Source of the DNA: Methanogenium sp. S4BF
GTDB lineage: Archaea; Halobacteriota; Methanomicrobia; Methanomicrobiales; Methanomicrobiaceae
Assembly: GCF_029633965.1 (NCBI RefSeq)
Contig: NZ_CP091277.1
Span: 1,981,940-2,045,939, forward strand
Length of the DNA: 64,000 bases
Direction of reading: 5' to 3'
Part shown: positions 8,737 to 43,760 of the stretch, in pieces
Numbering within the stretch: the stretch's first letter is position 1
Layout: every line of letters starts with the position of its first letter
The notes under the pieces: generated by a model
What the model was told of the DNA's origin: nothing
The model's database searches: none
The model's input: only the letters and a program-made list of their open reading frames with translations
Translations under genes and position numbers: made by a program

Positions 8737-10479
8737 GTGACGACTTCACCTTCTGTCAGGGTCAAATCTCATTTTTTTGATCTCTTCCTCACGCAAAAAC
8801 GTCTCATTCTTACCCAGCCGGATTATCCGGATGCACCTCAGGTGGATATTGTATTCAGCATGGTTTCGGCCTTCTCGCGCGGTGAGACCGCTGAGGGGGA
8901 CCCGTCCCTCTCCCTTACGGTCATGTCCGAAAGGGGTGAAAGGACGATGGTCCTGGCATTTGACGGGGGTGGTGGGTTTAAACCGGCTGATGAACGGGAC
9001 CGGCTGGCAGAACTGGTTGCTGGTATGCTTGGAAAAACAGCACCCCCGCCGGGCCCTGCCCCTGCTGCTGTCTTCTCACCTTCCATACCCGATCAGGCAG
9101 AAACCGAAGCTCCGTCTTCTACCGGGCCGGCAGAGACTCTGGTATCCGAACCGGCTCCCCCCGTATCCGTTTCGTCGATTTTTCGCCCTGAGAATGAGCC
9201 TGCACCGGAAAAACTCCCTGTCCGGCCTCCTTCTCCCTCTGTTTCCGGTCTGAAAGCAGAGCATATCATCGTGAAAGGCCGTGAGTTCACTGCCTCCCTG
9301 ACACCGGATACCATCTCCCTCGTCCGGCACGAGGACCCGAAGGCGCCTCCGCTTACGGTGCGCAGGAGAGAGATTACCGGCGTTGTCGCGAAGGAGTCGG
9401 CAGGGGGTGACCCCTCCCTGCATCTCCGGGTCCGGGCGGCAGACGGCAATGAGCGGACAATGGTGCTGGTATTCTCGGAGTGGTACTCCGGCGGCCGGGC
9501 ACCGGAACGTGAGGAATGGGCGGCAGCACTCACAGAGACTGCCGCGGCACCCGTGACGCCTGTCGCGCGCCCAATCCGGCCCGTCCGCGGAGAACGGGAG
9601 GCGCCGTTCTCCCCTCCTACAGCCCGTCCACCGGGTGGCGGTTCAATCCCTTGTGGGGCAAAGTTCTGCACTGAGTGTGGAGCACCGCTCACGGGAAGCC
9701 CAAGGTTCTGTCCGAACTGCGGATCGCCGGTTGGTTCCGGGAGCGGATCGGCACAGGCCACCACTGGCATTCGCGACCTGCCCTTTGATGCGGCCATAGA
9801 AGATGAGCGCCCGGCAAAGAAACAGAAACCACGTCAGAAGCGGGAAAAAAAGGAAAAAAAACAGCGGCAGCCACGAAAAAAGGCCTCATTCCGGTTCCGC
9901 AGCCAGGAGCTGGGCCTCTCCGAGGTTCCGTTCATTGAGAAATTTTTCGGTTTTCTTGCTGCACCGGATGACGCATTCCGGTATACACGAACCGACAGTT
10001 TCGGGCAGGCGCTGGTCTATCTTGCAGCAGTTCTTGCCATCTTTGCAGCTGTTACCTCGATTGTGCTGCACCTCTTCGCCGGTTCCCTTGATGCAGCGGA
10101 GTATCCCCGGATGGCCGCTCTGGGAGCTGATATTGTGGGTTCGCTCCTTCTTATCCCGAGAATTGTCATCCTTGGCATCGCGGGCATCCTCATCTGGTCA
10201 CTTGTCATGCACATCCTGCTGCGCATTCTCGGCCAGAGTGATGATGTAACAGAGACCTTCCGTACGTGTGCCTATGCGGCAACGCCCTTTGGCACAGTGG
10301 GGCTCATCCCCTTCTTCGGCCCGTTTCTTGCAGCAATCTGGATGCTTGTACTGCAGTACAAAGGACTTGTTGCGGCAGATGATGTGGAGAACAGGTTTGC
10401 GCTGCTTGCGGTTGCCGTGCCGGTCATCCTCTTTGGGGTGATATTCTCTCTCTTTTTCTCAGCAGGAGGTTCACAGTAA
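8737..10479 (+). CDS. Zinc-ribbon, YIP1-domain membrane protein with duplicated N-terminal domain
   Basis: A 580-residue protein. Two related N-terminal domains (about 5-95 and 170-268) share VKxxxFxxxLTxxxxxLxxxDxPxAP, GDPSL and ERTMVLxF patterns and resemble PH-like membrane or protein-binding folds. A double-CxxC zinc ribbon (CGAKFCTECGAPL, then FCPNCGSPV, about 308-333) follows, then a Lys/Arg-rich segment and a C-terminal YIP1 domain with about five membrane helices (from about 405). The GTG at 8737 is the first standard start after a stop at 8668, but it has no ribosome site. AGGTGAT at 8691-8697 lies six bases before an in-frame ATA (8704), so the true start may be upstream. It overlaps the next gene by 1 bp (TAATG). 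Confidence 0.75.
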   Translation: MTTSPSVRVKSHFFDLFLTQKRLILTQPDYPDAPQVDIVFSMVSAFSRGETAEGDPSLSLTVMSERGERTMVLAFDGGGGFKPADERDRLAELVAGMLGKTAPPPGPAPAAVFSPSIPDQAETEAPSSTGPAETLVSEPAPPVSVSSIFRPENEPAPEKLPVRPPSPSVSGLKAEHIIVKGREFTASLTPDTISLVRHEDPKAPPLTVRRREITGVVAKESAGGDPSLHLRVRAADGNERTMVLVFSEWYSGGRAPEREEWAAALTETAAAPVTPVARPIRPVRGEREAPFSPPTARPPGGGSIPCGAKFCTECGAPLTGSPRFCPNCGSPVGSGSGSAQATTGIRDLPFDAAIEDERPAKKQKPRQKREKKEKKQRQPRKKASFRFRSQELGLSEVPFIEKFFGFLAAPDDAFRYTRTDSFGQALVYLAAVLAIFAAVTSIVLHLFAGSLDAAEYPRMAALGADIVGSLLLIPRIVILGIAGILIWSLVMHILLRILGQSDDVTETFRTCAYAATPFGTVGLIPFFGPFLAAIWMLVLQYKGLVAADDVENRFALLAVAVPVILFGVIFSLFFSAGGSQ

Positions 10480-12113
10480 TGAAAAAATCAATACTCTTCC
10501 TTCCCCAATGGATGCAGAATCTTCCGGACGGGACGATATCCGGCCTTCTCGGCACGCTGATGGCTGTGCTTGTCATCATCGCATGCGCCGTCCCACCGGT
10601 ATGTGCGGATAATACAACGCCAATGGCCGGAATCACGAATACAACAGCTACAGCTACTGCTACGGCAACCGCAACGGCTACTGAAACTGCAACAGCAACT
10701 GCCACAGCGACTGCGACCGCAACTGCAACCGCAACCGCTACCGCAACGGCTACTGAAACTGCTACGGCAACCGCAACCGCTACCGCAACCGCTACTGCAA
10801 CCGCTACTGCCACAGCAACTGCCACAGCGACTGCGACAGCGACTGCAACCGCTACTGCGACAGCCACACAGACACAGGTCGCTCTGCCGGTCGCCTCGTT
10901 CTCGTACAGTCCGTCAAACCCGGCACCGGGAACCGCGGTCACATTTACTGATACGTCAAGCGGCAGTCCGACCGGCTACTACTGGAATTTTGGCAACGGA
11001 CAGATCAGCGCGGTGAAGTATCCTCCTGCCCAGACCTATTCGTCTGCCGGAACCTATATCGTCAGCCTGACTGTTTCGAATGCTGCCGGGACGTCTGCTG
11101 CTTATACACGGTCGATTGTCGTTGCGTCGGCGAATACTCTGGATGCAGATTTCGATTTTTCCCCGTCAAGTCCTGATGCCGGGGATTCCATCTCCTTCAC
11201 TGATGAATCAGAAGGGAATCCAACCAGTTGGGAATGGGATTTTGATGACAATACCGGTTCTGAGAACCAGAATCCGTCTCATACCTTCTCCTCTGATGGT
11301 GAATATGATGTAAAACTTACCATCAGAAAATCAGGTGGGTTCTCCGACACCGTCACCAAAACAATCACCGTGGGGGAAGGCACGACAACCGTAACCGGTG
11401 ATAAACCAACCGCTTCTTTTTCCTGGACCCCCTCAAGCCCGGTGGTGGGGAGTCCGGTCTCCTTCACCGACACCTCAACCGGTGAAGGCATCGATCAGTG
11501 GAAGTGGGACTTTGATGATGCGATGGACTTCACCGGCAACCGGGTAAGCACACTCCGGAATCCTCAGCACACCTACCAGAACTCCGGCAGCTACTATGTG
11601 ACACTCACGGTCTGGAATGACGCCGGGAGCAATATCATAGGAAAGACAGTCACTGTCGGCACCGTCCAGCTCAATGCCCGCTTCAATGCCTATCCGTCAA
11701 GTGGTTCGGCCCCGCTCACTGTGCGGTTTGTGGACGCATCCACGGGCAGCGGCATTGAGTCATATCAATGGAACTTCGGCAACGGCCGGACCTACACGGG
11801 GTCGTCGCCGTCCAATGTCGTCTATTCATCGCCCGGAACCTACACGGCCTCCCTCGAGATAGAGGATGAGAACGGCAGGACGGATGAGTTTACGATGAAC
11901 ATCATCGTCAACCCGGCGGTGACTGCTGCAGCCATGACGCAGACTCCTGTTCCCACCGCGACTCCGGTGCCTGTTGGAGAGGATACCGGATTTATTGACG
12001 GAGAATACCGGCAGATGACCGGTCTCTATAATGAGTATATCCGAATACTCTTCGGCTTCCTTGGAATCGATGATGAACCCGGTTTCCTGATCTTTGCGGT
12101 GAAAAAGAGCTAA
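10479..12113 (+). CDS. Exported PKD-repeat protein with a long Thr-Ala spacer
   Basis: A 544-residue protein with a hydrophobic N-terminal segment (about 22-43, probable signal peptide). Next comes a low-complexity spacer of alternating Thr-Ala with two Glu interruptions (about 55-131), then four PKD domains (about 138-215, 222-298, 306-395, 398-478) with the typical WDFDD / WNFGNG and HTYxxxGxYxVxLTV motifs. The C-terminus ends without a membrane helix. The spacer is a likely O-glycosylated stalk as in other archaeal surface proteins (inference). It is translationally coupled to the YIP1 protein. PKD domains usually mediate adhesion at the cell surface. Confidence 0.85.
   Translation: MKKSILFLPQWMQNLPDGTISGLLGTLMAVLVIIACAVPPVCADNTTPMAGITNTTATATATATATATETATATATATATATATATATATATETATATATATATATATATATATATATATATATATATATQTQVALPVASFSYSPSNPAPGTAVTFTDTSSGSPTGYYWNFGNGQISAVKYPPAQTYSSAGTYIVSLTVSNAAGTSAAYTRSIVVASANTLDADFDFSPSSPDAGDSISFTDESEGNPTSWEWDFDDNTGSENQNPSHTFSSDGEYDVKLTIRKSGGFSDTVTKTITVGEGTTTVTGDKPTASFSWTPSSPVVGSPVSFTDTSTGEGIDQWKWDFDDAMDFTGNRVSTLRNPQHTYQNSGSYYVTLTVWNDAGSNIIGKTVTVGTVQLNARFNAYPSSGSAPLTVRFVDASTGSGIESYQWNFGNGRTYTGSSPSNVVYSSPGTYTASLEIEDENGRTDEFTMNIIVNPAVTAAAMTQTPVPTATPVPVGEDTGFIDGEYRQMTGLYNEYIRILFGFLGIDDEPGFLIFAVKKS
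10641..10869 (+). repeat. Hexanucleotide-type tandem repeat encoding Thr-Ala
   Basis: About 230 bp of degenerate (RCN GCN) codon pairs, mainly combinations of gcaacc, gctact, gcaact and gcgaca, encode the Thr-Ala spacer. Its reverse complement encodes Val-Ala, which creates a spurious antisense ORF. Such a tract is prone to length change by slippage or recombination in units of six bases. Confidence 0.9.
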
Positions 12114-33488: not shown

Positions 33489-34748
33489 ATGTCTCTCAAT
33501 GACCGATGGATCGGTGCAGAGTTATCCGGTGTTGAGAGGGAGCTTGCCTGCAATACAAAATATGAGAACGTCGGGTATGTTGAATATTACCGGAATGACC
33601 CGCGGTATTTCTATCTGCATCCGTCTCCGTTTCTGAAGACCAGACCGTCTGTGCTGTACGTTGCCGATCCGTCCGTGGTCCCGCAGGGGCCGCCGCCGGA
33701 GCACCGGTTTATCCGGGTGCATGTCATTGACGAGGAGAGACAGCCTCTGGATGCCATGGGAAATGATTGGCTGACGTTCCGTGATATCGGAGGGTGGGAG
33801 GAGTTTGATGTCTCCTCTCTTGCACGGCAGCGCAAAATAATGGATTTCCATGAAGTGATCGAATTTTTTGCGTATCCCTATGACGGCGAAGCGGACTGCA
33901 TTGAAGAGATTGCAGGGTGTTCTGCATTATTTGCATTCTCCGCACCCCCAATGCATGATGAAACGGGCGGCATACGCTCAGCGGTATTCGGGAAAAAGCA
34001 TCAATGGGATGTGTTCAGGCGCCCGTTTGAAATAATTCCGAAAGAATTCAGGCGGGTCAACTCCTACTATTATTATCTCTTCTCGAATACCGAGACTGCT
34101 GTCCGGAAATCAGAGGGAGAGATTAATCAGGCAGTTCTCAAACCGCAGAAATTAATTGCCGATATTCCGGTTGCCATCGACAATGAATCCGGCAAAAAAC
34201 TGTCCCCGGAATATCGTGATGTCCTCAAAGAAGAGTCGGGCATTATCACCGGACAACTCCTGGACGGCCTCTTTATCAGACCAGAATCAACAGCAGCGAT
34301 TGAAAAAGTGATGACAGAGGCAGTATACGAACTGCGTGAAGAGTATCTTTCCTCAGGCCAGCGGCCGTTCCGGCAGAATATCTCGGGTGCCATTCCGAAA
34401 CTCGCGTCTTCGTATGCCAGATTGCAGTCAAGTTCTGACATCCGGAAAGATGATATCAAATATGTCATGGACCTGTGGTCGTCCATGTCGCATAAGACCG
34501 AAAAAATCCAGTCCTCGGCCCTGAAAGTGCGGGATGCCTTTGCCCTTACCGGGGATGCGAAGACCCTTTATTACCGGCTGTCTGATGTCTATGGGGCCGA
34601 TTGTCCGATTCCGTTTAAAGATGCAGTGAAGACCTCCTCTCTGGATCCGCTTGATTTTAAACTGGCGTATGAATCACTCGAAGAACGCGGGTATTGTCTC
34701 ATTGTAAAAAATAATCTTACTCTTCTTGAACCATATACGAAAGAATAA
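33489..34748 (+). CDS. Unrecognised protein, possible AAA-less MCM relative
   Basis: A 419-residue protein with no close family I can name. The N-terminal half (about 50-105, e.g. PPPEHRFIRVHVIDEERQPL) has an OB-fold-like strand pattern. The C-terminal half has a helical segment (about 265-335: ESTAAIEKVMTEAVYELREE, then SGAIPKLASSYARLQ and IRKDDIKYVMDLW) whose layout resembles the AAA+ lid of MCM helicases. A winged-helix-like end (about 360-415) follows. No Walker A or B motif is present between them. The resemblance is by eye and could be misleading. It lies just upstream of the tubulin-like operon but is separated by 262 bp and a TATA box. Confidence 0.6.
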   Translation: MSLNDRWIGAELSGVERELACNTKYENVGYVEYYRNDPRYFYLHPSPFLKTRPSVLYVADPSVVPQGPPPEHRFIRVHVIDEERQPLDAMGNDWLTFRDIGGWEEFDVSSLARQRKIMDFHEVIEFFAYPYDGEADCIEEIAGCSALFAFSAPPMHDETGGIRSAVFGKKHQWDVFRRPFEIIPKEFRRVNSYYYYLFSNTETAVRKSEGEINQAVLKPQKLIADIPVAIDNESGKKLSPEYRDVLKEESGIITGQLLDGLFIRPESTAAIEKVMTEAVYELREEYLSSGQRPFRQNISGAIPKLASSYARLQSSSDIRKDDIKYVMDLWSSMSHKTEKIQSSALKVRDAFALTGDAKTLYYRLSDVYGADCPIPFKDAVKTSSLDPLDFKLAYESLEERGYCLIVKNNLTLLEPYTKE

Positions 34749-34809: not shown

Positions 34810-34976
34810 GAAAGGTTTATCGGGTACATTTGAGCCGGCAGAGCAAAAATGGGGTATCTGGTCTGTGAAATATTTCAGGATACGGTAAAGGATGTGAGAA
34901 TACCGTGCTTGTGCCGCCATGCAACACGGAAAAATATTGCCTTCGGGCACATTTCTGTGCCGGTTTTCTTTTGAGA

Positions 34977-34987
34977 TATATTTAAAT
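34977..34987 (+). promoter_or_regulatory. TATA box of the tubulin-like operon
   Basis: TATATTTAAAT is centred about 29 bp before the ATG at 35011, which predicts a transcript beginning at or within a few bases of the start codon (leaderless). It marks 35011 as the first gene of the five-gene unit. Confidence 0.6.
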
Positions 34988-35010
34988 GTTTTTAAATAAA
35001 TCTTCTCGCC

Positions 35011-35796
35011 ATGGGTGTAAGGTATCGATCATCATTGTGCATATCACTGGCACTGCTCCTTTTGTTTCTGCTGATATGTGTGCCGTCTGCTGCTGTCATT
35101 GCAGAAGTTACGAACGGAACCCTTCTGGAATCCCGGAATGAGGGTGAATTAATACAATATACCATGGAAGTGAGCGGCATCCCCAAGCAGACGCGGATTA
35201 TTGAGATGACAACAGATCTCATGCCTGTGCCGGGCACCAGCCTCTGGCAGCCGGAAGTGAGTGGCTTCATGGTATCCGGGGGGGATGCGGCATTAAACGA
35301 CCACAAAATTGAGCTGACAGAGGACGGTGAATTTCCGGATGCAATCAACGTAACCGTATCAGGCAGGGTGCCCGTGCTGACATCGGTAGAGATCGTTGAC
35401 GGAGTTGTGGTAACGAAACGGATCACACAGACAACAGGGTATGTCTACTACCGCATTCAGGCACTTGATGAGAACCGTGATATCCTTGGATCAGGCACAA
35501 CCGAGACTTTTTCGGTGAAGATCCCGGATGACGAACAGTTCACGGCACGGCTGAACGCGGTCACCGACCCGGATTTGAGAGCCCTGATAGACGACCTCTA
35601 CTCAAGGGGGCTCCGGGATGAGGCAAACGACCTTCTGGAATATGCCGAAGCACCGAAAGAGTCAACGCTGCCGGTGACCATGGCGATTCTGGTGTCCGTA
35701 GTGTTGCTCGTGGGGGGATTTGGGGCCGGAATGGTATTCGGTCAGATGCGGGCGAAGAACATGCAGGAATTTCAGAAAGAATACAAGGGGGACTGA
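35011..35796 (+). CDS. Single-pass surface protein of the tubulin-like operon
   Basis: A 261-residue protein. The signal peptide covers about residues 10-30 (LALLLLFLLICVPSAAV), a beta-rich exterior part of about 190 residues follows, and a helical stretch (DLRALIDDLYSRGLRDEAND) precedes a membrane helix (about 226-246, VTMAILVSVVLLVGGFGAG) and a short charged cytoplasmic tail. No known domain is recognised. With stop at 35796 and the next start at 35803, it is tightly linked to the tubulin-like gene, suggesting that its tail or exterior domain cooperates with the cytoplasmic GTPase. Confidence 0.72.
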   Translation: MGVRYRSSLCISLALLLLFLLICVPSAAVIAEVTNGTLLESRNEGELIQYTMEVSGIPKQTRIIEMTTDLMPVPGTSLWQPEVSGFMVSGGDAALNDHKIELTEDGEFPDAINVTVSGRVPVLTSVEIVDGVVVTKRITQTTGYVYYRIQALDENRDILGSGTTETFSVKIPDDEQFTARLNAVTDPDLRALIDDLYSRGLRDEANDLLEYAEAPKESTLPVTMAILVSVVLLVGGFGAGMVFGQMRAKNMQEFQKEYKGD

Positions 35797-35802
35797 AAAA
35801 TA

Positions 35803-38800
35803 ATGCCTCATGATGATATAATCGAAGGGAAGCCCTTCCAGATGCCGGATGAATTAACCGTTGTAGCCATCGGTGGGTGCGGAAAAAAGCTCATATCAAA
35901 CCTCTATGAGCATGAATGGTTCCTGAGACATTATCTTTCGGACGGGAAACGGCTGTCACTGTTCACCATAGACACTGATACCAACCAGAGAAAGGATGAT
36001 ATCAAACGATCAGAACAGGTGATGGCACGGCTGGGGGATATCCAGCGAACAAACAGCCAGATGGGCGGAAGTGTAAAAAGCTTCCATTACCACCTCCCCG
36101 ACCTGGCGAACGTCGAACGTGTCTCTTCCCTGACATCGCGGGAGGTGACCGAACAGATGAAAAAGAGGCGGGAACGCCCGCTTGTCGATGTATGGTGGAT
36201 GAATGATCCCGAATACGGATTCGACTACCAGATGCTGAAAAAGGTGGACAAAAATATCGTCGACGATTTCGGCGGAGGGGTCCACCGGAGGCGTGCGATA
36301 TCCAAGGCGGTATTCTACAAGGCGATCACCCAGGGCGGAGAGCAGTTCCCCTCATTTCAGGGGCACGGCCCGGTGGCGCTCATTGTTGGTCTCGGAGGCG
36401 GTACAGGATCCGGGATGTTTATTGATCTGGCCCGCTACATCAAGGAGAAACGCGGGCAGGAGTCAAAAATCTGGCTCTTTGTGGTGCTTCCGGCGGCAAG
36501 CGAAGGGGAAAAGGAGCAGTTGAATGCTGCGATCGCACTCTCCGAGATTGAATATCTGAACATGATTGAAGACAAGCTCTTCAACTACATCATCGTCTCA
36601 TCCCTGAGCCCCACCGGATATGTCGACGGAGGGGACAGAAAGCAGGAAGTGGTCGAGTTTGACGCGTCCTTCCCCTATATGTTCATCAATTCCTTCTACC
36701 TCCCGACAGCAGACATCTCAGCCATCGTAGACGCCAAAAAAGATTACTCCGGCTTTATCTTTGCAGATTCGCATGTAATCGAGTACCCGGTGGAAAATCT
36801 CCGGTCATTAAAGAAAGGGTTTGAGGATGTCATCGAAAGCCTCTCCGGTTTCGGACAGAACCGGGGAAAGATCTTAAAAGAGGTCTCTGAATTTATCGCA
36901 ACCAATGAAAGCCTCTACCCCGAGGAATTTTCAAAGACGGACACGGAGATAACCCACAACGATGTGAACCTGTACCGAAAGGAGATCGAGAAAGTCAAAA
37001 AAGTCTGGGAGAATGAGATCACCGATCTTTTAAACTTCAAAACGCAGTCCATTATCGAATCGGCGGTCACAAACAACATGCCTGCCGAGCTCAAGGACAT
37101 CTCTTCTGTGCAGGACTATGACAAACTCACAGAGTACGTCGAAAGGCTCAAAAAGTCCCTTGAAAACGAGAGCAAACCGCATGAAAATGCAAAGGATCAG
37201 GAATTATACGAACTGATAAAAAAGAATCTTCATTTCCTTGAGGAGATGTCACATCTCCAGAAGAAGACATTCTCCATTAGTGAAAAATCAGCACGGATTG
37301 CACTTTTAAACATCATTCGCGGCGAAGAAAACTTCGGCAAGATTTCAGGCGACCTCTCATCGCGCCAGTCGACACTCAGGGCGGAGATCAGTGAAGCGGA
37401 TGTCAGGATCAAAAAGAAGCGTGATGACCTTGAGGAGATCACCGCTGAGCAGAACAGAATGCTTGACCGGATCAGATCCGAGGTTAACGCACTTGCCAAA
37501 CCGGTTGATGATTACGTTGCGCTCGGCCACGGAACGGCCGCTGCTGCCGGACAGGGTTCAATAGAAGGTCTTGAACAGGCATTTCTGGAGAAGTTCGCGG
37601 CACTTCTCTTTGTCCTCAGGGAAAAGCTCAATGAGTCGGAGAAGAAGAAGGCAAAACTGATCCGGCGTGATGAATGGCTCTCCTCACTTCCGCTCGGGGA
37701 CCTTCAGGGAGATATCGAGAGGTTGGAGAAGGCGACATCAGCAGACTTCTCCTACCTGAGGGATCTTGCGGAGTCGGTCTCTCTTTACTTCTACAACGAC
37801 TATATGCTCAGGCTCTCCAAAAAACAGGGCTTTACTGACAGTCTTCTGGGGAGAAAACTCAATTCCGAGATGTACAGAAGCGAAAAGGCGACAAAGGAAG
37901 AGAGAATACGCAAGATATCCCAGATGCATCCCGGAAAGATATCGATACGCGATCCCTTCGAGGTCTTCATACAGGACAAGTTCCTGACACGGGAGTTTGA
38001 CACACGGCTCGTCTCCCTGCGGGAAGCGACCTTAGCGCCGGTTTCATCACAGTTCAACCTTGAATCCGAAGAGAAGGCAGCCCTTGTCCGGTCCTTCTCC
38101 GGAAGGGACACCGCATCGATTCTCACCGGCATCAGGGAGACTCTGACAGAGATCGTAAACAACCGTGAAGGATACTCCACAAAGACCGGAACCATAAACA
38201 GAGAGATAGACTTCCTGATCCAGTCGCAGAAGCAGATGCAGCAGCAGGTCGAATTCCTGCAGAAGACGGACAATCTGGTGAACGCGACCTTTGACCCACG
38301 AAAAAAGTTCAATGCAGACGTGAATGCCTATGAGTCCGGGCTGAGGATCATTGACGAAAAAAGAAAGAGTGGCAATGCAACCATTGAAGGCATGTACCGG
38401 ACGTGGTTCGGGGAGATTAACCCGACCATTCTCTCCCTGCTGCGTGATGACTCTGACCTCTCGGTCCTCGACTATGACACGGAGGGAAAACGTGAGATTG
38501 AAAAGCTCTACAACATCGTGCAGTGGAAGTACAAGGAGCTTATTGATGCACACAAACTTGGGATAAACAATATTTCGATCGGGTATGGAAGCGCCGGAAC
38601 CGAACGATGGAGCTTTGACAAGGCCGCCCTTGTCGCATCGTCCCCCTCACGGTGGCTTTCACAGTTAATAGACAACAAAGGCAGTGATTTCAGGCGCAAT
38701 CTGGTAAAATCCCTGGATTTAAAGGGCGTCGACAGTGCGAAGGTGAACTCCCACAACTACACCAAACCCTGGGAGATATCGCTCACGTTCTTTGCAGCGG

Positions 38801-39063
38801 CAAGTTTCCTGGACAATATATCCCCTTTGACAACCGGCGGAGGATACTGGGAGAAGTACGAGAAGGCAAAGAACAATATCCTCCATCATGCCCTGTATCT
38901 TCACGAGGGGAAGTATGTTGTCCGTGAGAAAACCCTGCTTTTAACCGATGCGGCAGAGACTGCAGATCTTGAATCCGGCGACAAGGCACAGATTCAGGAG
39001 GCAAAGGACAGGATTCTGGACTTATACACGGTAAAGGACATCAAAGAGGCAGCCGGGGAATGA
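35803..39063 (+). CDS. Large tubulin/FtsZ-superfamily protein with coiled coils
   Basis: A 1086-residue soluble protein. The N-terminal domain has the tubulin-superfamily nucleotide signature: an IGGCGKKLISNL loop (about 23-34), a strand with IDTDTNQ (about 56-62) at the T3 position, and GLGGGTGSGMFIDLA (196-210), the diagnostic T4 G-box. FVVLPAASEGEKEQLNAAIA follows, resembling the T5/H6 region. A canonical NxDxxD/E catalytic loop is not obvious, so hydrolysis on polymerisation is uncertain. Residues about 370-900 are rich in long charged helices and coiled coils. The size and layout match the poorly known Tubulin_2-type (PF13809-like) proteins rather than FtsZ or CetZ. It overlaps the next gene by 4 bp. 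Confidence 0.85.
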   Translation: MPHDDIIEGKPFQMPDELTVVAIGGCGKKLISNLYEHEWFLRHYLSDGKRLSLFTIDTDTNQRKDDIKRSEQVMARLGDIQRTNSQMGGSVKSFHYHLPDLANVERVSSLTSREVTEQMKKRRERPLVDVWWMNDPEYGFDYQMLKKVDKNIVDDFGGGVHRRRAISKAVFYKAITQGGEQFPSFQGHGPVALIVGLGGGTGSGMFIDLARYIKEKRGQESKIWLFVVLPAASEGEKEQLNAAIALSEIEYLNMIEDKLFNYIIVSSLSPTGYVDGGDRKQEVVEFDASFPYMFINSFYLPTADISAIVDAKKDYSGFIFADSHVIEYPVENLRSLKKGFEDVIESLSGFGQNRGKILKEVSEFIATNESLYPEEFSKTDTEITHNDVNLYRKEIEKVKKVWENEITDLLNFKTQSIIESAVTNNMPAELKDISSVQDYDKLTEYVERLKKSLENESKPHENAKDQELYELIKKNLHFLEEMSHLQKKTFSISEKSARIALLNIIRGEENFGKISGDLSSRQSTLRAEISEADVRIKKKRDDLEEITAEQNRMLDRIRSEVNALAKPVDDYVALGHGTAAAAGQGSIEGLEQAFLEKFAALLFVLREKLNESEKKKAKLIRRDEWLSSLPLGDLQGDIERLEKATSADFSYLRDLAESVSLYFYNDYMLRLSKKQGFTDSLLGRKLNSEMYRSEKATKEERIRKISQMHPGKISIRDPFEVFIQDKFLTREFDTRLVSLREATLAPVSSQFNLESEEKAALVRSFSGRDTASILTGIRETLTEIVNNREGYSTKTGTINREIDFLIQSQKQMQQQVEFLQKTDNLVNATFDPRKKFNADVNAYESGLRIIDEKRKSGNATIEGMYRTWFGEINPTILSLLRDDSDLSVLDYDTEGKREIEKLYNIVQWKYKELIDAHKLGINNISIGYGSAGTERWSFDKAALVASSPSRWLSQLIDNKGSDFRRNLVKSLDLKGVDSAKVNSHNYTKPWEISLTFFAAASFLDNISPLTTGGGYWEKYEKAKNNILHHALYLHEGKYVVREKTLLLTDAAETADLESGDKAQIQEAKDRILDLYTVKDIKEAAGE

Positions 39064-40625
39064 TCATCAACAATAAAAAAAGAAGAACATACCTTCTTTT
39101 TGCTCTTCCTTTGAGCATTGTTGTTGCCTATATCTTCACATCCATAGCGCCTGTCTTTAAGCTTCACCCGCCGTCGTTTGTATTGACCGTCTGTGTTGAA
39201 TTTTTATGCGGACTCTTCTTTGCCATTGCGGTGGGTATGCTTTTTAACGAGGACTCCCGGATAAACGGCGTTATCTACACCGGAATATTTGCTGCAATAC
39301 CTGTTTTTTATGTGTATTCCTCCCCGTGGGCAGACATCGGCCTCCTGACTCTCACCTTCTCAGCGGGAGTCCTGTGTGGTGCGGTGTTTGTTGCACAGGT
39401 GGTAATCACAAACCGCTATGACAATCTTGCAAAATTCGCCAAGGTGCTCTTTACCCTGTTCTTTGCAATCATCATCGGCTTTCTTGCATACGAGATGTAT
39501 CTTACTTCCTTTGCGCCCGATACAGCAGTGAGTGAGGCATATGTGACGCAAAATATCTTCTTTTTTGGTGCGGGGATTGTTCTCTCACTGATTCTCTACT
39601 GGCTTGCGATAAAAATCACCATCGGCGTACGGGCATCTGAGATATTTATATTCGGGCCGCGTTCATCCGGGAAGACGTATTTTGTCCTTGGCCTGTGGAG
39701 CTACATATCCGAGCATTTCGAGAAGGGTCACTCAAATGAGGGTGTGGTATTAACGGGCGACCCCAATGACGAAGGCGACGAACTGAGGATATCAAGCCTG
39801 TATGCAAGCATTCTCGATGGAAAAATTCTCTCACGGACGTACCGCTACCAGATGGTGATGTATCAGCTTACCGGAAAGAAGTACGGGCTGATTCCGGTCA
39901 AATGGACGGTTGTAGACTATGCAGGAGAGTATTACGATGAGCTAAATGAAATCAACTTTACAAAGGCCGTCTCCCTGTTAAGTGACCGTCTTGGAATGCC
40001 CGAGGGGGAGGTCAGAAAGGGTGCAGGGACGATCGATTTTGTGAAGTACATTAAACTGCACCACCCGGAAGAACTCATCGACCCGGAATTCACCAAAAGT
40101 GTCATCCTGTCGACGATGTACGGTAATTTTATCCGGGCAGGAAAGGTCATCTTTCTTATCGACGGCGAAAAAATAACCGACGACAGGAAGGGCCATGCAC
40201 AGCTGGCACGGGAGTTCGGGGGGTATATGAAGACCCTGATTGATCTGGAAGGAAAAAATTATCTCGGATTTTTCCGGCCCAACAAAAAATACGCCCTTGT
40301 TGTCACCAAAACTGATCTGGTATTCTGGAAGAACCGGGAGATACGAAATCTAATCCAGTCAATGAATGCCGAAAAATTATCCGATATCCCGGAAATGTCC
40401 AGAGAAGCCCTGAATATCGAGAACAGCCTCTTTGAGATCCTCAGTTCAAACAAGGTTTTTAAAAACCTGGTAAACATGATGAACGACATCTCGATGTATT
40501 TTGTCGCTGTCTCTGTTGATGCGTCAGCCGAGCCTTTTCCCACAGAGGAAGGATTTGAAGAGGAGATTGCCCCGACCGCCCTTGCACCGTGGAGGTTTAC
40601 GGAGATATTCAAATTCGGCCTGTGA
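39060..40625 (+). CDS. Six-TM membrane protein with a TRAFAC-like GTPase domain
   Basis: A 521-residue protein. Six hydrophobic helices (about 10-31, 38-61, 68-87, 91-114, 125-147, 164-187) precede a cytoplasmic P-loop domain. The Walker A/G1 is GPRSSGKT (199-206), a DxxG-type switch reads DYAGE (286-290), a strand VIFLIDGEK follows (363-371), and TKTD (416-419) fits the guanine-specifying N/TKxD motif. This suggests a GTPase rather than an ATPase. It resembles the DO-GTPase-like proteins reported in prokaryotic conflict-system surveys, from memory. The ATGA overlap with the tubulin-like gene strongly suggests that the two GTP-binding proteins work together at the membrane. Confidence 0.82.
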   Translation: MIINNKKRRTYLLFALPLSIVVAYIFTSIAPVFKLHPPSFVLTVCVEFLCGLFFAIAVGMLFNEDSRINGVIYTGIFAAIPVFYVYSSPWADIGLLTLTFSAGVLCGAVFVAQVVITNRYDNLAKFAKVLFTLFFAIIIGFLAYEMYLTSFAPDTAVSEAYVTQNIFFFGAGIVLSLILYWLAIKITIGVRASEIFIFGPRSSGKTYFVLGLWSYISEHFEKGHSNEGVVLTGDPNDEGDELRISSLYASILDGKILSRTYRYQMVMYQLTGKKYGLIPVKWTVVDYAGEYYDELNEINFTKAVSLLSDRLGMPEGEVRKGAGTIDFVKYIKLHHPEELIDPEFTKSVILSTMYGNFIRAGKVIFLIDGEKITDDRKGHAQLAREFGGYMKTLIDLEGKNYLGFFRPNKKYALVVTKTDLVFWKNREIRNLIQSMNAEKLSDIPEMSREALNIENSLFEILSSNKVFKNLVNMMNDISMYFVAVSVDASAEPFPTEEGFEEEIAPTALAPWRFTEIFKFGL

Positions 40626-40652
40626 GGGGTCATTTCAGGGAGGGTTTTAGGA

Positions 40653-42089
40653 ATGGATGATGCATACGGAATATTTACCACGGACGGCGAGACGGTCGCA
40701 GGCACCCTGAATGATGAGTATGCACTCCGTCTTGCTGAGCGACTTGACGAGAGCACGGCGTCATTGTATATCAGCACAAAAAATGGTGTTTTTCTGCTCG
40801 GAACCGCGGTAAACGTGCAGAAGAAGGGAAGACGGCCTGATACGTTCATCTATCTTGAAAAGGTCGGATGGAACCGGGAACTTCCGCCGGACATTGATCT
40901 CGCATTCATCCATGCGTTTTACGGCCGCATCGAAGGAAGGCTCGCAGAAATAGAGTATGAGGTGCGTGATCTCGCATCAGACGTTGATTTCTTTGACGAA
41001 CGGCATAAAAAAGTAGTCACCAGTCTCCTGAGTTCCCATGCCGCAGACTACTCTGTCGGAAGGCTGCTTCTGGGAAAGGAGGTGGTGTGCGTATCAGGCA
41101 ACCTCTCAAAGTCTGTCGATTTTGTTGTCGCCGTCACCGAAAAGCTTCATTTTTTCCTCTCCGCCGGGTTTACCATCGTTGTTGCAAAACGTTCTTTTAG
41201 GGATGCCGATCTGCTGGTGACAGAGAAATATGCCGGGACAGTTCATATTGACCTTGACACTGAACGTACAAATGATCCGAAGTGGGGTGAGCTCTATACA
41301 AACCTCGGTATATTTGCCCGGAATCCCGTAGTCCGGCAGAAAATCTCCGCGGAACTGTCCCGGAAAAAACTGGAGGAGCGGCTTGTTTCTGCGTACACCG
41401 GCAGCAATGTCCCGCCTGTCAGTGCAGAACGGTTCAGGGATTTTCTTTCAGAGGAGAAGATTGGTGCCTTTGAGAAATCACAGGAGAAATTCTCTTCATC
41501 TGCGTATGAAGCACCGGCAAAAGAGGGAGTGAAACGGCCGAAGGAGTCAGACTACGGAAAGTGGACGATCACCGAGTCTGACAGGGAGGACCTCAAACGT
41601 GAGTATGAGAAGCACATGGAGGCGAAACGGAAGGGGAGGGTGCGTCTGCTGGCCGTCCTGGGCGTGTTTGTCATCCTGCTTGCAGCCGTACTGGTGCTCT
41701 TTGTCGTCTATCCGGGATTTATGCATGGTGGCCTGAATCTGACTGAAATTCCGCACATCACCCCTTCGGCAACGATTCCACCCGTTGATGCGTCACGTAT
41801 TGTCACACGGCTGAACACCACGCCGGGAAATATCCCTGAAAACCTGTCCGGATTCGGAAGTGCATATGATATCACGCTCTCCGGACCGCAGAATGTGACA
41901 CTTGACCTGAACGCTGATTATAACCCGGATCTGTCGTATTACCTGCTGCTCTACAACCAGTCGGCGTCATCATGGGAGCCGGTTGAGACCACATTTGTTT
42001 TCACAAACGGGTCGGTGACAGCCTTCATTATGGATTCAGGCATATATCGCCTCTTCACGGACAGGGAAAGCACCTTTAATGAGAGTTAA
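40653..42089 (+). CDS. Single-pass membrane protein with large cytoplasmic domain
   Basis: A 478-residue protein without signal peptide. A cytoplasmic part of about 325 residues is mixed alpha/beta and unassigned (opening YGIFTTDGETVAGTLNDEYA), ending in a charged helix (SDREDLKREYEKHMEAKRKG). One membrane helix (about 331-353) follows, and then an exterior beta-sandwich-like domain of about 110 residues with several N-glycosylation sequons. It lies 27 bp after the GTPase gene. Topology would let it carry a signal between outside and the GTPase/tubulin layer; the direction is unknown. Confidence 0.7.
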   Translation: MDDAYGIFTTDGETVAGTLNDEYALRLAERLDESTASLYISTKNGVFLLGTAVNVQKKGRRPDTFIYLEKVGWNRELPPDIDLAFIHAFYGRIEGRLAEIEYEVRDLASDVDFFDERHKKVVTSLLSSHAADYSVGRLLLGKEVVCVSGNLSKSVDFVVAVTEKLHFFLSAGFTIVVAKRSFRDADLLVTEKYAGTVHIDLDTERTNDPKWGELYTNLGIFARNPVVRQKISAELSRKKLEERLVSAYTGSNVPPVSAERFRDFLSEEKIGAFEKSQEKFSSSAYEAPAKEGVKRPKESDYGKWTITESDREDLKREYEKHMEAKRKGRVRLLAVLGVFVILLAAVLVLFVVYPGFMHGGLNLTEIPHITPSATIPPVDASRIVTRLNTTPGNIPENLSGFGSAYDITLSGPQNVTLDLNADYNPDLSYYLLLYNQSASSWEPVETTFVFTNGSVTAFIMDSGIYRLFTDRESTFNES

Positions 42090-42131
42090 AAGTTGAGTTG
42101 TGCGTCCGTACAGCACAGACAGGTATTCTCT

Positions 42132-43760
42132 ATGAAAAAACCCTCAGCACTGAGAATCATTCCCGTCCTCATTTTGTGCCTGCTCATACAGGCGGTCATC
42201 TCACCTGCAGATGCACAGATACAGAAAGGCACGATATCTGTCTCATCAGTGCCGCAGGGAGCGAATATTTACCTGAATGATGAAGATCTCGGCCTTCAGA
42301 CAAATACGGTGATTCAGAATGTTTTTCCGGGCATTCACTATGTGCGGCTTGAGTTGCCGGGCTACCGGACATGGGAGAAGATCTTTGAGGTAAGGGAAGG
42401 GGAGATTACCTACATCAGCCATGAGATGGAGCCGTTGGTGGGCGATGCCTTCTCTGTAACGACAAAGCCCGAGGGTGCACAGATCTATATCGACGGGGAC
42501 TTTTACGGCATATCAAATACCGTTTTTTATGAACTTCCCACGGGGCAGCACCGTGTGCTCCTGCTGCTTGACAACTATTCAGATTATGCGGCAACGGTAA
42601 CCATCAGCGAAGGGATGTCGCAGTCACTTGTGCATACGTTTGAGCCAATACCTGACACCGGACGGATAACTGTTGCATCTGTCCCGTCGAATGCCGGGAT
42701 TTATCTGAACGGAGAGTATCAGGGCACCACCCGAAAGACGCTTGATGAGGTCGTGCCGGGGACGTATGCCATTGTCATCATGAAAACCGGATACGACAAC
42801 TGGACGGGCACGGTTGACGTTGCGGCAGGAAAAATATCTGAAATAATTGCGGAGCTGACGCCTGCAAAGGTCATTTTGTCCGTTACAACGGTTCCGAAAG
42901 GCGCCGGTATTGTCATCGACGGCGTATTCTCAGGCACCACTCCTCTTGAAATACCGGTTGAACAGGGATTGCATACGGTTCTTCTGGAAAAGTTTGGCTA
43001 TGAGAGTCGTGAAGAGGAGGCGGATGTCGGTGCTGAAGGGGCCTCAATTTCTGTGAACCTTGTATCAATGGCGCCGCAGGCAATAGCAGAGGCACAACGG
43101 GTGGTATTCGATAATGTCGACTACCAGCCGGAGAAAGCACGGGAGGCGCTTGAGAATGCACAGAAAAGCTATGCGGCGGGAGACTCTGAAAGTGCAATAA
43201 CCTACGCAGCGTCTGCAATCGCCCTTGCCCGGGACGTTGACGGGGACGGGGTGATAAATCCGCTCGACATCAGCCCGCATCTTCACAATGCTGTGATATA
43301 TATAACGCCGTTTCTTGTTGTGTTTCTTGTAGCCGGATTGATTGCAAAGGACATGCTACGGCATCGGATAAAGCCTGAGATCACGGTCCATCTGCCGGTG
43401 ACCATACGGGAGGATGATATGCTTGCACGGGCTGAGGTGACGGCAAATGCTCCCGGAGGGCCATACCGGGGTTTTGTCTGCACGGTGTACATTGACGGCA
43501 TCTCCGTTGACCACTTCACGGACCCCGGAAAATATGATGTGATGCTCTCAGGACGAAGCCCGGGTGTCCACAGTCTGATGGTGCATCTTCAGGTTGCAAA
43601 GGAGCGGTACGGTAAAGCGGAGAAGAAGGTGAAGGAGAACTTTATCGTTGAACCTCCAGAACCGGCACATCCTGTTACGGATGAGAAAGGTGGCGGGATT
43701 ATTATTCCGGAAGATGAGGACTTCGGGCCTGAGGATCTGTTTGAGGAGGGGAAAGAGTGA
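42132..43760 (+). CDS. PEGA-repeat transmembrane protein of the tubulin-like operon
   Basis: A 542-residue protein from the ATG at 42132 (signal peptide IIPVLILCLLIQAVISP). Four PEGA repeats (about 30-95, 100-165, 170-235, 240-305; e.g. SVPQGANIYLNDEDLG and SVPSNAGIYLNGEYQGT) are followed by a helical segment. An EF-hand/dockerin-like calcium loop (DVDGDGVINPLDI, about 372-384) comes next, then a membrane helix (about 392-412, IYITPFLVVFLVAGLIAK). A cytoplasmic Ig-like domain with an acidic tail (EDEDFGPEDLFEEGKE) ends the protein. It would bind the S-layer or matrix outside and present a domain to the cytoplasmic machinery. Confidence 0.82.
   Translation: MKKPSALRIIPVLILCLLIQAVISPADAQIQKGTISVSSVPQGANIYLNDEDLGLQTNTVIQNVFPGIHYVRLELPGYRTWEKIFEVREGEITYISHEMEPLVGDAFSVTTKPEGAQIYIDGDFYGISNTVFYELPTGQHRVLLLLDNYSDYAATVTISEGMSQSLVHTFEPIPDTGRITVASVPSNAGIYLNGEYQGTTRKTLDEVVPGTYAIVIMKTGYDNWTGTVDVAAGKISEIIAELTPAKVILSVTTVPKGAGIVIDGVFSGTTPLEIPVEQGLHTVLLEKFGYESREEEADVGAEGASISVNLVSMAPQAIAEAQRVVFDNVDYQPEKAREALENAQKSYAAGDSESAITYAASAIALARDVDGDGVINPLDISPHLHNAVIYITPFLVVFLVAGLIAKDMLRHRIKPEITVHLPVTIREDDMLARAEVTANAPGGPYRGFVCTVYIDGISVDHFTDPGKYDVMLSGRSPGVHSLMVHLQVAKERYGKAEKKVKENFIVEPPEPAHPVTDEKGGGIIIPEDEDFGPEDLFEEGKE

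Follow-up and report, generated by a model that had tools for sequence, protein, structure and literature searches.

The window, by which we mean the whole stretch of 64,000 nucleotides of Methanogenium sp. S4BF DNA that was analysed, contains five adjacent genes (A to E) on the forward strand, separated according to ORF calling by successive gaps of 6, -4, 27 and 42 bp (Table 1). Judged from the sequence, they form a predicted operon behind a single promoter. The TATA box ATATTTAA occupies positions 34978-34985 within a 28-bp element upstream of A, and the ORFs and this element match exactly the five same-strand genes, spacings and one TATA box given in a sequence-only reading made earlier by a model. 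The element keeps a nearly fixed distance from A across genera in which the DNA further upstream is otherwise unrelated, and it is present in one copy per genome in five of the seven genomes searched, with zero control matches. As the TATA box lies about 25-33 bp 5' of the A ATG, the A-E transcript is likely to be leaderless or to have a short leader. An imperfect inverted repeat rich in A and T (DNA fold z=-3.8) lies in the same promoter stretch.

The operon is chromosomal in the window (host genome of 2.51 Mb) and is flanked by housekeeping genes; tyrS, glyoxalase and GAPDH genes flank it in Methanogenium only. The gene at 33489-34748, whose 419-aa product has no Pfam match, was rejected as a sixth member, as it adjoins the operon in Methanogenium loci only. 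An alternative in-frame TTG start for E is found at 42093.

Table 1. Coordinates of the operon and its features in the window
Feature	Position	Strand	Description and basis
Promoter element with TATA	34973-35000	+	28 bp; footprint across genera
Gene A	35011-35796	+	261 aa; ORF, hydropathy
A ectodomain	35101-35676	+	~190 aa; follows signal peptide
A TM	35677-35739	+	at residue ~225; hydropathy
Gene B	35803-39063	+	1086 aa; FtsZl1/Tubulin_2 protein; ORF, Pfam
B N-terminal tubulin/FtsZ GTPase domain	35803-36837	+	Pfam, hhalign
Gene C	39060-40625	+	521 aa; multi-pass membrane GTPase; motifs, hydropathy
C TM region	39060-39623	+	5-6 helices; hydropathy
C cytoplasmic P-loop GTPase domain	39624-40625	+	GxxxSGKT, DYAGE, TKxD motifs
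Gene D	40653-42089	+	478 aa; single-pass; hydropathy, AF2, family alignment
D cytoplasmic domain	40653-41636	+	first ~100 aa modelled longin-like
D TM	41637-41708	+	at residue ~334; hydropathy
D ectodomain	41709-42086	+	modelled ZU5/GAIN-like beta-sandwich
Gene E	42132-43760	+	542 aa from ATG 42132; four PEGA repeats; Pfam, hydropathy
E PEGA repeats, outside	about 42228-43092	+	Pfam PEGA 7e-57, 4 stretches

The encoded proteins

Four of the five operon proteins are membrane proteins, embedded or spanning to the outside according to hydropathy, and no Pfam match to A, C or D exceeded the cut-off. The assignment of B to the tubulin superfamily, already made from the letters of the sequence, is confirmed by Pfam (Tubulin_2, PF13809, 1.3e-12, above cut-off; Tubulin, 5.8e-9) and by the hhalign alignment of residues 191-262 with archaeal FtsZ/CetZ-type proteins (E=1.7e-9). 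The T1 (GGCGK) and T4 (GGGTGSG) loops are conserved, the latter within GLGGGTGSG at residues 196-204. Beyond the N-terminal domain, B continues into a long coiled-coil middle and a mostly helical C-terminal part. The AF2 model is weak (pLDDT 60.5, 10 sequences), showing long helices at residues 330-855 and, at low confidence, the mostly helical C-terminal part. Foldseek found no match to this model in the PDB at E<0.001; its high-probability matches are mostly FtsZ, CetZ and tubulin, those at 1.00, 0.99 and 0.95 being FtsZ and CetZ. The FtsZ/tubulin C-terminal domain has no Pfam match in B, and a coiled coil stands in its place. Residues 300-312 (...ADISAIVDAKK..., GDINISDVK in relatives) may represent a reduced T7 loop, tentatively recognisable in methanogens; we infer this cautiously, since the AF2 model has low confidence in this segment and T6-H7 of the FtsZl1 proteins could not be located by Makarova and Koonin (PMC2875224). 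The FtsZl1 proteins rank with the most divergent relatives of tubulin.

Protein C carries the motifs GPRSSGKT, DYAGE and TKTD. The methanogen C proteins shown retain an intact P-loop and TKxD, and a single one of them has DxxGK in place of the DxxGE motif with the Walker B glutamate. The earlier reading was right about these motifs, and the six TM helices that it counted become five or six by hydropathy. The best Pfam match of C is DO-GTPase2, at E=0.0058 and 16.8 bits against a curated cut-off of 27 (PF19993/PF19975), so that of the profile matches expected in the operon, Tubulin_2 and PEGA were recovered and the GTPase stayed below cut-off. DO-GTPase2 is matched at E<=0.1 by 11 of 18 relatives of C (best 3e-5), and hhalign of C against true DO-GTPases matched the P-loop alone; C looks distantly, and weakly, DO-GTPase2-like. 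In one locus (L141 of genome G210, 9101-10593), C seems to be split after A-B into a 5-TM protein of 178 aa and a GTPase-like protein of 317 aa. A haloarchaeal locus (L138, 2953-6492) encodes a pair of paralogous membrane GTPases, in one of which the P-loop is degenerate, an arrangement that recalls a 'double GTPase'.

Gene D lies directly 3' of the GTPase gene. Hydropathy agrees with the predicted single-pass protein with a large cytoplasmic part, and the domain models go beyond that prediction. The AF2 model (pLDDT 72, 10 sequences) gives residues 4-99 the beta-beta-alpha-beta-beta-beta-alpha order of the longin fold. The best Foldseek matches of this domain in the PDB include TagF (E=5e-3, probability 0.97) and the FLCN-FNIP GAP complex (probability 0.63), with E from 5e-3 to 7e-3; as no structural match fell under 1e-3 and sequence profiles gave no support, the longin call is suggestive only. 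Over ~100 residues the ectodomain resembles GAIN and ZU5 beta-sandwiches (Foldseek probability 1.00). With moderate confidence, the first ~100 aa are thus modelled as longin-like and the ectodomain as ZU5/GAIN-like; sequence methods gave support for neither. Similarity of TagF to the Sec22b longin domain has been reported (PMC3325213), and GTPases are binding partners of longin domains (PMC3521125), which makes D, on its model, a likely regulator of C. A motif resemblance makes GAP1 a lead for D, for which the comparisons gave no significant match: 16 D proteins had no Pfam GAP1 match and hhalign against one archaeal GAP1 was not significant. A 3-sequence GAP1 profile gave no significant hhalign match either (best segment D134-183 to GAP1 197-243); bacterial GAP1 sequences were covered by those of two Rhodococcus plasmids.

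Both A and E have the surface topology foreseen for them. A consists of a signal peptide, an ectodomain, one TM and an 18-aa cytoplasmic tail; in E, a signal peptide precedes the four PEGA repeats, and one TM near residue 387 leads to the predicted cytoplasmic domain, a beta-rich tail of ~137 aa. Mean pairwise identity, for which the genome set differs from family to family, is highest in the B tubulin domain (0.54), the E PEGA part (0.44) and the C GTPase domain (0.42), and the D ectodomain is poorly conserved (0.24). The ectodomain is the most conserved part of A (0.39 versus 0.29 for the tail). Because its tail is not conserved, A is not an obvious anchor for B, and a role as tubulin anchor via a conserved tail was rejected.

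Conservation and inheritance of the gene set

Tblastn and profile searches found the order ABCDE on a single strand in 21 loci with differing flanks, ABCD in nine loci, ABC in seven and BC in six. These subsets are nested by lineage: ABCD belongs to genomes of the f8 family, ABC to f3, and BC to haloarchaea and a Methanohalobium plasmid. The nesting indicates that B-C is the core, A an addition across the methanogens examined, where an A orthologue precedes B, and D and E outer, lineage-dependent layers. Among 150 genomes of the order, 36 encode some Tubulin_2 protein and 32 a long-type B; all 32 also have C, which occurs without long-type B in a single genome (Fisher p=7e-32 for co-occurrence). 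D was found with C in 25 of 33 genomes, and the pairwise identities of B and C are correlated (Spearman 0.91). Such co-occurrence and the 21 ABCDE loci rule out chance clustering; the genes do occur together elsewhere, as the sequence-only reading had proposed to check, and its trans-envelope unit of surface proteins, tubulin-like protein and membrane GTPase holds up in anatomy, co-conservation and topology.

Individual loci deviate from these patterns. In genome G127 (L153, 5692-8776) C and D are present and A and B were not found, and the neighbourhood includes a Ser/Thr kinase-like protein, an antiporter and an AAA ATPase. In the Methanogenium cariaci draft (L034/L041) the operon and tyrS are interrupted by many frameshifts, which probably reflect errors in the draft sequence. 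A contig labelled Bacteroidota (L046) carries an ABCDE unit much like that of a Methanoculleus MAG and is probably misassigned.

For most genus groupings the B tree matches the RpoB tree, and B lies ~15-21 kb from rpoB in several f3 genomes. The B tree contains two old lineages, both present in genome G045, and f4 genomes are scattered in it. The B protein of genome G002 falls outside its own genus, with one clade not rejected by the AU test (p=0.106). Purely vertical inheritance is unsupported at depth, given the scattered f4 genomes and the position of G002; inheritance, as far as the trees reveal it, appears mixed, combining a stable place on the chromosome with horizontal exchange of older date. 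Plasmid matches were found for B, and a search for a phage match for C gave none. Genome G045 encodes three Tubulin_2 proteins, and a second tubulin-like gene (1083 aa, L086, 15110-18361) directly follows its ABCDE unit.

Possible roles of the operon

The gene set, with its hydropathy topology, intact GTP-binding motifs, co-conservation and single promoter, is best accommodated by a mechanism in which a GTPase responding to the envelope controls a tubulin-like scaffold bound to the membrane; we assign it a probability of roughly 0.4. The operon would encode a cytoskeletal scaffold that is anchored in the membrane, switched by GTP and connected to the cell surface, with C as the switch and D as the regulator of C. 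The D ectodomain, with the PEGA repeats of E and with A, would contact the S-layer or sense its state, and the longin-like cytoplasmic domain of D would touch C. A change outside would alter the nucleotide state of C. In turn, C would recruit B, a tubulin-like protein with a coiled coil and a GTP-binding domain, to the cytoplasmic side of the membrane or release it from there; at this site B may assemble. Against this mechanism stand the weakness of the B model, the dependence of the longin call on one 10-sequence model, the unconserved tail of A, and genome G127, in which C and D were found and A and B were not; C evidently works without D in f3, whose ABC loci lack it. A more far-reaching version seems rather unlikely to us, namely an outside-in signalling cytoskeleton in which a receptor-like longin protein acts on the multi-pass membrane GTPase and, through it, on local tubulin-like assembly; if true, it would resemble eukaryotic receptor-GTPase-cytoskeleton coupling, yet in a non-Asgard archaeon.

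In the proposal of Makarova and Koonin, membrane remodelling, B would polymerise FtsZ-like inside the cell and C would act as a dynamin- or Arf-type GTPase, bending the membrane or making vesicles, while the surface proteins would shape or select the site. The same family and GTPase association (PMC2875224) are seen here, and a multi-pass GTPase adjoins the tubulin-like protein. The genome encodes a separate FtsZ/CetZ-type protein at another locus (G000:C1:56388), so B need not divide cells. However, B lacks a detectable FtsZ-type C-terminal domain and has its tentative T7 loop in methanogens, no remodelling-type domain was found in the operon, and nothing in the data requires the formation of filaments or curvature. 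We consider remodelling a rather unlikely explanation.

We consider it distinctly unlikely that the operon is a conflict or immunity system of the Kaur et al. (2020) type, with C as the DO-GTPase switch, D as a GAP1-like coordinator and B as a polymer-forming effector directed at invaders. The DO-GTPase2 similarity of C relatives, the paired haloarchaeal GTPases of which one is degenerate, the vWA, Hsp70 and GrpE neighbours of B-C in Haloplanus, the plasmid copies, and some horizontal transfer are all consistent with such a role. D, however, is not detectably GAP1 by Pfam or by profile comparison with three GAP1 proteins, PADLOC gave no significant system match, and the operon has no nuclease or toxin effector and lies among housekeeping genes. 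Moreover, inheritance is largely vertical at genus level, the A ectodomain is conserved rather than hypervariable, and no pointer specific to phage defence was found in this lineage. A static surface-anchoring or cell-shape scaffold, in which A and E hold the S-layer, B forms a fixed coiled-coil lattice that C only places, and GTP has a structural role, would suit the external PEGA repeats, the conserved A ectodomain and the long coiled coil, but is improbable given the intact, strongly conserved GTPase motifs of B and C and a distribution so patchy that the system must be dispensable for basic shape.

Comparison with known systems

FtsZl1 proteins and their partner GTPases, membrane-associated in archaea, were predicted in 2010 by Makarova and Koonin, whose alignment includes Methanospirillum and Methanosarcina sequences (PMC2875224). 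In 2020, Kaur et al. described GTPase-centric systems with tubulin, DO-GTPase, GAP1, FNIII/PEGA, vWA and Hsp70 components and proposed a conflict role for them (PMC7159879). The sequence-only reading had placed Tubulin_2-type and DO-GTPase-like proteins in prokaryotic gene neighbourhoods and had missed the family and GTPase link published in these two papers. The literature searched yielded no functional study of FtsZl1 proteins. Methanosarcina acetivorans, a genetically tractable archaeon, has a Tubulin_2 protein, which together with the ABCD units of f8 genomes makes the long-standing prediction directly testable.

B resembles FtsZ and CetZ in its GTP-binding domain with T1 and T4 loops and differs from them in its length of ~1086 aa, its coiled-coil extension and the undetected FtsZ C-terminal domain. 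The predicted fold of the D N-terminus is that of longin/roadblock GTPase regulators (MglB, SRX, FLCN-FNIP and the TagF N-domain), and D is likewise genetically paired with a GTPase; unlike them, it spans the membrane once and carries an ectodomain, and sequence similarity is undetectable. With the systems of Kaur et al. the operon shares a tubulin-like protein with a coiled coil, a DO-GTPase-type switch whose Walker B motif has a glutamate, beta-repeat and PEGA domains outside the cell, and TM components. In contrast to those systems, C is weakly DO-GTPase2-like with five or six N-terminal TM helices, D is not detectably GAP1, and Zn ribbons, vWA and Hsp70 are absent from the operon.

A B-C pair lies beside vWA, Hsp70 and GrpE genes on a Haloplanus rubicundus plasmid (L187, 623-15899), and at another haloarchaeal locus B-C adjoins surface beta-repeat proteins, one of them fused to a kinase-like domain; these two loci link the unit of the window to both the 2010 and the 2020 descriptions.

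The A-E operon is a lineage-specific (Methanomicrobiales) version of the FtsZl1 system, and A and D may correspond to the unnamed families A1/A2 of Makarova and Koonin. As in FtsZl1 proteins, B has an N-terminal FtsZ-like domain, GGGTG(S/T)G, a coiled coil and a mostly helical C-terminus, and C corresponds to the partner P-loop GTPase that is membrane-associated in archaea. Unlike the published operons, in the majority of which, not in all, a vWA protein is found (PMC2875224), the one described here has no vWA, OmpA or Ser/Thr kinase gene (vWA was not among the Pfam matches of A, C, D, E or the D relatives) and has A, D and the PEGA-repeat E instead. What is new is this archaeal variant of five genes, with PEGA repeats and no vWA, together with its promoter and the domain model of D, a predicted GTPase regulator thereby added to the FtsZl1 system. 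Its compact form behind one promoter and the nested subsets BC, ABC, ABCD and ABCDE suggest which parts of the system are core and which are envelope adaptors.
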